A stretch of DNA of 39,218 bases from Bacteroidales bacterium (GTDB lineage Bacteria; Bacteroidota; Bacteroidia; Bacteroidales; UBA932): assembly GCA_017454335.1 (NCBI GenBank), contig JAFTDE010000022.1, forward strand, positions 1 through 39,218, in the 5' to 3' direction. Made by a program: the position numbers and the translations under genes. Of the stretch, positions 35,469-36,756 are shown piece by piece (within the stretch, counting starts at the first letter, position 1; each line of letters opens with the position of its first letter). The notes beneath the pieces are model-generated. The model saw nothing but the letters and a program-made list of their open reading frames with translations, searched no databases and was not told where the DNA came from.

Positions 35469-35915
35469 TTACCGGGTCGGCCGGGACAGCTTTTCAATGA
35501 TGCCGTCCAGCATCCCGTACAGGCCGGGAACCGTTTCCGGGGTCACCGAATCGCACAGCACGGCATGGCCGACGGTCTCCGGGACGGCTGCCAGCTGGTC
35601 CTGCAGACGGCTTCCCTTGTCCGTGAGCGAAACGATCATCTGGCGCGCATCCTTCTTGCCGGGGGTGCGCGTCAGGATGCCCTCCGCCTCCATGCGTTTC
35701 AGCAGGGGAGTGACCGTATTCGTCTCCAGCATCAGCCGCCTGGCGATGTCGTTCACCGGCTGCGCGTCCTTTTCCCAGAGCACCAGCAGCACCAGGTACT
35801 GCGGATAGGTGAGGCCGTACTCCGACAACAGCGGATGGTAGGCCTGGGTTATCAGACGCGAAGCGGTGTACAGCCTGAAACAGAGCTGGTTGTCCAGTTT
35901 GAAACGTCCGTCCAT
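35469..35915 (-). CDS. ohrR: OhrR-type MarR-family peroxide-sensing repressor
   Basis: The 148-residue winged-helix protein keeps the organic-peroxide sensor of OhrR. The reactive Cys is C12 in NQLCFRLY, and Tyr residues at 16, 26 and 37 match B. subtilis OhrR Y19, Y29 and Y40 with a constant offset of 3. The DNA-binding helices lie around VNDIARRLMLETNTVTPLLKRMEAEGIL and the wing at RTPGKKDARQ. It has no second C-terminal resolving Cys at the Xanthomonas position (C130 here is in a different context), so it probably belongs to the one-Cys class. It follows gpx with a 1-base overlap, so it likely controls its own operon. Confidence 0.87.
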   Translation of the reverse strand: MDGRFKLDNQLCFRLYTASRLITQAYHPLLSEYGLTYPQYLVLLVLWEKDAQPVNDIARRLMLETNTVTPLLKRMEAEGILTRTPGKKDARQMIVSLTDKGSRLQDQLAAVPETVGHAVLCDSVTPETVPGLYGMLDGIIEKLSRPTR

Positions 35916-36457
35916 TACAGCATCGCTTCAATGTCCGCCTCGAAAGATTCAGGCTCGGCCGTCGGGGCGAAACGCTTGACGACGGTGCCGTCCCGGTTGA
36001 CGAGGAACTTCGTGAAGTTCCACAGGATGTCGCTGTCCTTCTCGACGCTCTTGCTGATACCCTTCAGCAGTTTCTGCGTCGCCTTGGCCTTGAGTCCCTT
36101 GTACTCCTCGGTGGGGGCGGCGGACTTCAGGTAGGTGAAAACGGGATCCTCGGCGGCTCCGTTCACGTCGATCTTCTTCATCAGCTGGAAGGTGACGCCA
36201 TGGTTCAGGCGGCAGAACTCGGCGATTTCGGCATCGGAACCGGGCTCCTGGTGGGCGAACTGGTCGCAGGGGAATCCGAGGATGACCAGACCGCGGTCCT
36301 TGTAGCGCTGGTACAGGGCCTCCAGGCCATCGTACTGGGGGGTGAAGCCGCATTTGGACGCGGTGTTGACAATCAGGAGCACTTTGCCTTCGAACTGCGC
36401 GAGGTCCATCTCGACGCCCTTGTTCGTGAGGGCTTTGAAATCATAAATCTTTGCCAT
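35915..36457 (-). CDS. gpx: Glutathione peroxidase-family thiol peroxidase
   Basis: It reduces hydrogen or lipid peroxides; bacterial members usually take electrons from thioredoxin. The 180-residue protein has the peroxidatic Cys as C36 in NTASKCGFTPQY (codon TGC, so not selenocysteine), the GFPCDQFAHQEPG motif with a second Cys at 64, and ILWNFTKFLV with the Trp-Asn pair of the catalytic site. The usual Asn in CNQF is Asp (residue 65). It is the first gene of gpx-ohrR and lies behind a promoter flanked by two palindromes, which implies induction by peroxides. Confidence 0.93.
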   Translation of the reverse strand: MAKIYDFKALTNKGVEMDLAQFEGKVLLIVNTASKCGFTPQYDGLEALYQRYKDRGLVILGFPCDQFAHQEPGSDAEIAEFCRLNHGVTFQLMKKIDVNGAAEDPVFTYLKSAAPTEEYKGLKAKATQKLLKGISKSVEKDSDILWNFTKFLVNRDGTVVKRFAPTAEPESFEADIEAML

Positions 36458-36481: not shown

Positions 36482-36497
36482 ATATCGTTCGCGATGC
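36482..36497. promoter_or_regulatory. Candidate OhrR operator 1 (imperfect)
   Basis: ATATCGTTCGCGATGC matches operator 2 at 11 of 16 positions, with ATATCG and GCGAT conserved in the same register. It covers the predicted gpx transcription start (about 36490) and touches the -7 box. Confidence 0.5.
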
Positions 36498-36526
36498 AAA
36501 TATAAGACTTTATTTTTATATCGCAA
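36497..36526 (-). promoter_or_regulatory. Promoter of gpx-ohrR
   Basis: On the minus strand TTG (36524-36526), a 19-base spacer and TATATTTG (36497-36504) match the Bacteroidota form exactly. The TTG sits in the centre of a perfect palindrome and the -7 box abuts a second, weaker one. Confidence 0.7.
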
Positions 36527-36533
36527 GCGATAT
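36518..36533. promoter_or_regulatory. Candidate OhrR operator 2 (perfect palindrome)
   Basis: ATATCGCAAGCGATAT is a perfect inverted repeat with 7-base arms around AA. It covers the -33 element of gpx. A MarR dimer bound here would block sigma contact. Its centre is 36 bases from that of operator 1. Confidence 0.65.
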
Positions 36534-36594
36534 TTATATTATTTTGAGGAAAATGTTTATCTTCGACATCGTTTAACAAACATTCGTACGACTT

Positions 36595-36756
36595 ATGAAA
36601 AAATACGTATGCAACATCTGCGGATACGAGTATGATCCGGCCGCCGGTGATCCCGACAACGGAATCGCCCCCGGCACCGCTTTCGAAGATCTCCCCGCCG
36701 ACTGGGTCTGCCCCCTGTGCGGCGTCGGCAAAGACGATTTCTCCCCGGCAGAGTAA
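36595..36756 (+). CDS. Rubredoxin
   Basis: The 53-residue iron protein has the two knuckles CNICG (C6, C9) and CPLCG (C39, C42), the expected [14 protein letters not shown] segment and ADWVCP. It carries single electrons, in anaerobes typically to rubrerythrin, superoxide reductase or flavodiiron proteins that detoxify oxygen species. It is divergent from gpx across a 137-base gap that holds the two candidate OhrR operators, so peroxide-linked control is possible. A near-consensus -7 box TATCTTCG lies at 36558-36565, without a clear -33. It is complete despite its small size. Confidence 0.93.

Follow-up and report, generated by a model that had tools for sequence, protein, structure and literature searches.

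Two predicted OhrR operators at the promoter of a gpx-ohrR operon in a Bacteroidales bacterium and its relatives

Repressors of the OhrR family are defined by a reactive cysteine that is accompanied by a tyrosine triad. In Bacillus subtilis OhrR the recognition helix is the DSGT segment and the operator is a box of the AATT type. Xanthomonas campestris OhrR has second-cysteine chemistry, with Cys127 as the resolving cysteine, and both its target and its operator are other than those described here. The classical OhrR-ohr system combines an AATT operator with a linked ohr gene, and neither is present in the module that we found in a 39,218-base stretch of DNA (the whole of which is referred to here as the window), contig C6 of a 2.16 Mb Bacteroidales assembly that is 78.8% complete. 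A glutathione peroxidase gene (gpx) as the target of an OhrR-family repressor is known already and has a precedent in Pseudomonas aeruginosa. There OspR (PMC4999210), a repressor of this family that is sensitive to organic hydroperoxides, governs a glutathione peroxidase gene; its footprint, from +12 to -56, spans the promoter and holds more than one candidate box, and its operator is of the AATT-N-AATT class, with AATTCAA-N-TTGAATT as the proposed form. Our module resembles OspR-gpx in that an OhrR-like repressor is linked to gpx, here in all 29 congeneric loci examined (L005-L033), and differs in that it has two separate ATATCGY-N2-RCGATAT palindromes about 36 bp apart rather than an operator of the AATT class and in that ferritin joins the operon in relatives of the window genome. 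The module would thus work in the manner of OspR-gpx, and we class it as a separate system.

B. subtilis OhrR (1z91/1z9c; PMC3737563, PMC4027180), the regulator of ohrA, shares with the window protein the family, the sensor cysteine, the tyrosine triad and the winged helix, and the release of the repressor by organic peroxide is predicted here as well. The differences lie in the recognition helix, DSGT in B. subtilis versus ETNT in the window, and in the target, ohrA and not gpx. In PMC4027180, Asp67 is among the DNA-binding positions and Ser68 is likened to a residue thought to contact a base; the residue that differs in the window OhrR is the next one. Among the papers listed from one open-licence library, no title or opening of an abstract described an OhrR operator, or an OhrR-gpx or OhrR-ferritin operon, in Bacteroidota. 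To the extent that this literature shows, four features are new: an operator built on the ATCG word, its occurrence as a phased pair, ferritin as a partner, and the association between helix and operator.

The features of the window are collected in Table 1. The two genes gpx and ohrR form an operon, in which the gpx stop and the ohrR start overlap as TAATG.

Table 1. Positions of genes, promoter elements and predicted operators in the window
Feature	Position	Strand	Basis and remarks
gpx, glutathione-peroxidase-family thiol peroxidase (Cys type)	35915..36457	minus	PF00255, E 5.1e-44
ohrR, MarR/OhrR-family repressor	35469..35915	minus	PF01047 and PF22381 above cut-off
predicted operator site 1	36518-36533	palindrome, plus-strand ATATCGCAAGCGATAT	ATATCGC-N2-GCGATAT over the -33 element; conserved pair
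predicted operator site 2	36482-36497	minus	GCATCGCGAACGATAT; overlaps the -7 box by one base (its last); spans the expected start
-33 element TTG	36526-36524	minus	sequence; consensus scan match TTGCGA
-7 element TATATTTG, TAnnTTTG type	36504-36497	minus	TA..TTTG columns 1.9-2.0 bits in 87 distinct relatives
rubredoxin	36595..36756	plus	PF00301, E 5.2e-26; divergent, local neighbour, module conservation absent

The product of the downstream gene is OhrR-like, and its family is clear from sequence. The top PDB sequence matches carry the OhrR name (E 1.8e-32 and 1.4e-31), and the nearest solved structures by sequence are 2pfb and 2pex, which we take to be X. campestris OhrR. The first-pass annotation had called this an OhrR-type repressor with the sensor cysteine and three tyrosines, and indeed we found Cys12, Tyr16, Tyr26 and Tyr37, along with a second cysteine, Cys121, and the recognition helix ETNT (64-67). 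The window protein aligns with B. subtilis OhrR (1z91) without gaps at a shift of 3 residues, which places the four residues at 1z91 positions 15, 19, 29 and 40, those of the B. subtilis sensor Cys15 and tyrosine triad, and ETNT at 67-70. The NCBIfam OhrR equivalog model gives 123.9 bits, below its cut-off of 200. The MarR model scores the window OhrR at 56.6 bits in its own genome, where one other place reaches 26.8 bits (barely above cut-off) and one lies beneath it. Across the 110 Asn/Ser-type loci of the genus and named relatives (defined below), the sensor cysteine and all three tyrosines are kept in 108. The second-cysteine chemistry of the X. campestris protein is possible in the window OhrR too; Cys121 aligns to chain position 131 of the X. 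campestris structure, whereas Cys127 is the resolving cysteine there. Since a cysteine lies within residues 106-135 in 110/110 of these loci and in 27/53 of the Asn-type order and phylum loci, a two-cysteine switch is possible for the window OhrR and is not general.

Promoters of Bacteroidota follow a -33/-7 consensus of TTTG, a spacer of about 19-21 bp and TAnnTTTG. Upstream of gpx we found TTG-N19-TATATTTG, which we take to fit this consensus; a consensus scan chose the same place, and TA..TTTG is conserved. The gap between gpx and the rubredoxin gene measures 137 bases. Site 1 consists of seven perfect pairs around a 2-base centre and reads ATATCGCTTGCGATAT on the gpx-coding strand, with the TTG enclosed. 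It is unique in the window at up to 3 mismatches on both strands, while shuffles expect 0.16 matches. The commonest form of site 2 in relatives is GCATCGTGAACGATAT, with a perfect ATCGT-N2-ACGAT core, and the element common to both sites is ATCG-N4-CGAT, or in its better form ATATCGY-N2-RCGATAT. The sequence thus agrees with the earlier description of a perfect palindrome that encloses the TTG of the gpx promoter, of a related site with 11 of 16 matches on the -7 box and the expected (predicted) start, and of a centre-to-centre distance of 36 bases.

We next considered how widely the pair is conserved. The closest named relatives by OhrR are Bacteroidales assemblies, mainly from ruminant stomachs (best 80 of 138), and the genus sample comprises 61 genomes, 29 with the Asn/Ser-type ohrR of the window and 32 without it (in two of the sample, G032 and G038, the sole ohrR is a distant Gly-type). 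Together these overlapping sets, in which for example L010 and L130 look alike, give 110 Asn/Ser-type ohrR loci. Both sites are present in 103 of them, a single site in 5 and none in 2, one of which is masked upstream (L085) and the other cut by a contig end (L115). The centre distance among the 103 pairs is 36 bp in 97, 35 in 3 and 37 in 3, a spacing that may be partly forced by the promoter. Across 87 distinct sequences with the 36-bp spacing, both sites and TA..TTTG show high information, which drops outside them; the conservation of the ATCG/CGAT columns is partly by construction because loci were chosen by the ATCG/CGAT pattern. The inner Y/R pair of the palindrome showed no significant covariation in the same set and was not counted as evidence. 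First-order Markov resamples of 81 order and phylum upstream regions (20 each) produced a pair 33-38 bp apart at a rate of 0.0000 and one strict site at a rate of 0.011; the pairs in 103 of these 110 loci, and in 31 of the 53 Asn-type order and phylum loci described below, go beyond chance. An exact site 1 precedes the ohrR operon in 26 of the 29 congeneric genomes with the same ohrR type, the other three having one mismatch (G010, G056) or two (G023), and was found in none of the 32 congeneric genomes without it. If the site were lost along with the entire operon, such co-occurrence would be expected whichever regulator reads the site.

The first-pass annotation had proposed a scan of the genome for the palindrome near other peroxidase genes, which returned one further intergenic match. 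Searching for ATATCG-N4-CGATAT with one mismatch allowed (weaker sites escape such a search), we found 7 places in the own genome, 5 of them in reading frames and only the window site and C48:63347 intergenic. The latter (C48:63347-63362; L035 2048-2063) is the near-identical site ACATCGCTTGCGATAT. It lies in a gap flanked by a gene for a sodium:dicarboxylate symporter (divergent) and one for an APH-like kinase, with a second Gpx gene next. In several relatives a second gpx stands directly behind ohrR. One reading, which rests on one genome, is that gpx2 may have been relocated while keeping OhrR control; the arrangement of site, kinase gene and gpx2 was not found in the congeneric loci L245 and L249-L252. 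The one-mismatch strays outside the operon, 12 in relatives and 5 in the own genome, a set without one further match (G042:C38), each fall within an open frame of 80 codons or more; three of these frames (L074, L078, L084) have just 90-106 codons and may not be genes.

The gene that follows the pair varies: it is gpx, a gene with a ferritin domain (PF00210) or ohrR itself. Leaving L122 out of this assignment, ferritin (scored by its C-terminal motif) comes first in 34 loci, and ohrR in L138 of the named set and in L177, L178, L181, L183 and L186-L188 at order level. L167 is a ferritin-ohrR operon that lacks gpx, and L112 has ferritin-ohrR with gpx behind. Across this changing make-up, the predicted sites follow ohrR and not gpx. 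A ferritin search of the 61 genus genomes gave 10 full-length matches of at least 50% identity, in ohrR operons, as well as a ferritin remnant in two pieces in the ohrR operon of G044, a match cut by a contig end in G047, where ohrR was not found, and distant ferritins (27-28%) elsewhere in G008 and G048. Ferritin remnants were also seen between operator and gpx in L023 and in L032/L212/L215. These remnants suggest that ferritin has been lost from ferritin-gpx-ohrR operons.

Partners also differ between OhrR types. Counting genes anywhere in the fetched locus, Asn types have gpx in 43/53 and ohr in 4/53, while Gly types have ohr in 22/28 and gpx in 1/28. The earlier claim that gpx takes the place of the usual ohr holds up in that no member of the OsmC/Ohr family was found in the own genome (78.8% complete) and in that gpx adjoins ohrR in each of the 29 congeneric loci. 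A few Asn-type loci do contain ohr. L217, from another class of the same phylum, carries an ATCG pair directly 5' of an Ohr gene, which scores 167.6 bits with TIGR03561 (cut-off 88.85) and is followed downstream, in the same orientation, by an Asn-type ohrR. In L289 a single site lies about 200 bp 5' of ohr, L199 has a pair with gpx and ohr both in the locus, and L292 has ohr and two degenerate one-mismatch sites that were seen by eye and scored as none. Such loci connect the ATCG word with OhrR in a way that does not depend on gpx. Our best reading is an OhrR branch with an altered operator, whose target would be gpx, and sometimes ferritin, mostly in place of ohr.

We then compared the operator word with the recognition helix over a wider range. 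Of 393 order genomes, 53 gave an OhrR match, as did 28 of 395 genomes from the phylum (own genome counted in both). The residue at the third place of the recognition-helix block divided the loci outside the own genome into 53 Asn, 28 Gly and 1 unclear (L242, left out of these counts), with longer-flank versions in place of the short ones for L179, L192, L194, L200, L216, L088 and L089. The helix start is mostly [E/D/N]TNT on the Asn branch and D[S/T/N]GT in the Gly type. We found ATCG sites in 47/53 Asn-type loci (31 with the pair and 16 with one strict site), the 6 site-less ones being L180 and L302 (with only 147 and 600 bp of upstream sequence), L292, L299, L300 and L301. ATCG sites were found in none of the 28 Gly-type loci, nor in the genus Gly types L086 and L087. 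When gapped palindromes were counted free of any preset motif, the same division emerged, with TATCG-N4-CGATA at the top for Asn types (34/53; maxima of five shuffles 5-7) and AATTG-N4-CAATT for Gly types (11/30; shuffle maxima 3-5). An AATTT-N4 word in 12/53 Asn types exceeded its shuffled maximum and was taken as base composition.

Site type is therefore associated with the recognition helix of the predicted regulator (Fisher's p 3e-16, kinship ignored). On an OhrR tree of 91 rows, from which L091 (a broken ohrR-gpx fusion) and L242 (helix not clear) were dropped, the helix residue changes twice and the site trait needs nine changes. The tree comes from a quick search with the helix columns included, and 38/88 inner branches have less than 80% support. 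It offers two independent contrasts only, which go in the expected direction in 1.8/2 on average and have no statistical power. We consider it an even chance that these loci represent a distinct Bacteroidota OhrR branch, in which substitution within the recognition helix, at its first turn (Asn for Gly at B. subtilis position 69, with neighbours), moved the operator from AATTG/CAATT to ATCG/CGAT, and in which two promoter-straddling operators tie organic-peroxide sensing in anaerobes to Gpx and, for many of the relatives, to iron storage by ferritin as well. A second OhrR, of the Gly type, was seen beside gpx in the congeneric loci L086 and L087, with the word CAATTCGATTG 5' of gpx, and adjoining gpx in the order locus L293.

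Taken together, it is very probable that the gpx-ohrR promoter is under two OhrR operators that form an autoregulated organic-peroxide switch. The first-pass annotation had suggested such a switch, and the comparison supports it. Because the sites track ohrR, the exact site is absent where that ohrR is absent, site type goes with the helix and L217 keeps the pair before ohr, the support for OhrR binding and control of its own operon appears close to the limit of what comparison can give. Beyond sequence, conservation, co-occurrence with ohrR and the helix association, we infer binding, repression, oxidation and release from OhrR biology and the anatomy of the sites. The reduced OhrR dimer would bind both palindromes, one covering -33 and the other -7 and the start, and would thereby exclude RNA polymerase. 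An organic (lipid) hydroperoxide would oxidise Cys12, which might then form a disulfide with Cys121 from the other subunit; the oxidised repressor would release the DNA, Gpx would destroy the peroxide, and OhrR made from the same message would reset the switch. Repressors of the Asn branch would read ATATCGY-N2-RCGATAT rather than the AATT-type OhrR box, and the same predicted operator pair also heads ferritin genes in relatives and ohr in one distant relative.

The promoter itself offers another explanation for one of the sites. Single-site loci exist (5/110 and 16/53), L027 has lost site 2 and L179/L303 are without site 1, so one site alone might be the true OhrR site while the other mimics it through the constraints of the promoter (TTG at -33, TTTGCA at -7). 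We regard this as improbable, given that both sites hold ATCG..CGAT letters beyond the promoter elements and that several site 1 variants without TTG keep the palindrome (for example ATATCGTACACGATAT in L178/L181 and ATATCGTTCACGATAT in L167). It is also conceivable that the ATCG palindromes are read by a different protein, for instance a factor with a general role in peroxide, iron or redox control, and that ohrR is a passenger gene. Factors of the OxyR/PerR/Fur type typically control ferritin and Gpx, and the ferritin relative in G047 (L211) keeps an ATATCG half-site upstream by eye; its contig ends in the gene and ohrR could follow, and we set this uninformative case aside. Against a different regulator stand the lack of the exact site in 32/32 congeneric genomes without this ohrR type, the position of the 12 strays from relatives in open frames (the three short ones included), sites that head ohr and an ohrR without gpx, and the tracking of the recognition helix. 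Such a regulator is very improbable in our view.

The divergent rubredoxin gene, which starts 61 bases past site 1, raises the question of whether the OhrR switch acts both ways, with the gap serving also as a peroxide-controlled rubredoxin promoter. On the plus strand, positions 36515-36542 resemble a promoter weakly and overlap site 1, and by eye this strand has no good TAnnTTTG. We found no rubredoxin gene within 1.5 kb flanks of the 28 further congeneric loci (L006-L033) and one in only 2/80 named loci, where the flanks reached at most 4 kb. Rubredoxin is thereby ruled out as a conserved partner, the earlier suggestion that the shared gap serves it finds no conservation, and local two-way control is doubtful.

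If the OhrR switch operates as proposed, this rumen-type bacterium appears to keep the gene of a peroxide-destroying enzyme shut by means of two copies of a palindromic switch. The same two-site arrangement recurs in many related gut bacteria, with a word unlike that of known repressors of the family, and provides a predicted operator for an OhrR branch present in 49 of 393 sampled order genomes (53 OhrR matches minus four Gly-type). The Asn and Gly types would represent a natural specificity switch within one repressor family that can be addressed by single substitutions. Our data also suggest that lipid-peroxide defence and iron storage in these anaerobes can share one sensor, with Gpx replacing Ohr.

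Several loci carry further variations. In L279, L280, L282, L285, L297 and L298, a third, degenerate ACGAT-like element closely follows site 2 (by eye). In G063 (L091, 2327-2827), the N-terminal region of ohrR continues, out of frame, into the remains of gpx, forming the broken ohrR-gpx fusion, and ATATCGTAAACGATAA lies just 5' of it. Some operon copies of gpx (L010, L018, L023, L024) have 203-205 codons. The extra N-terminus of the L018 copy resembles a signal peptide, which suggests that Gpx may be exported.
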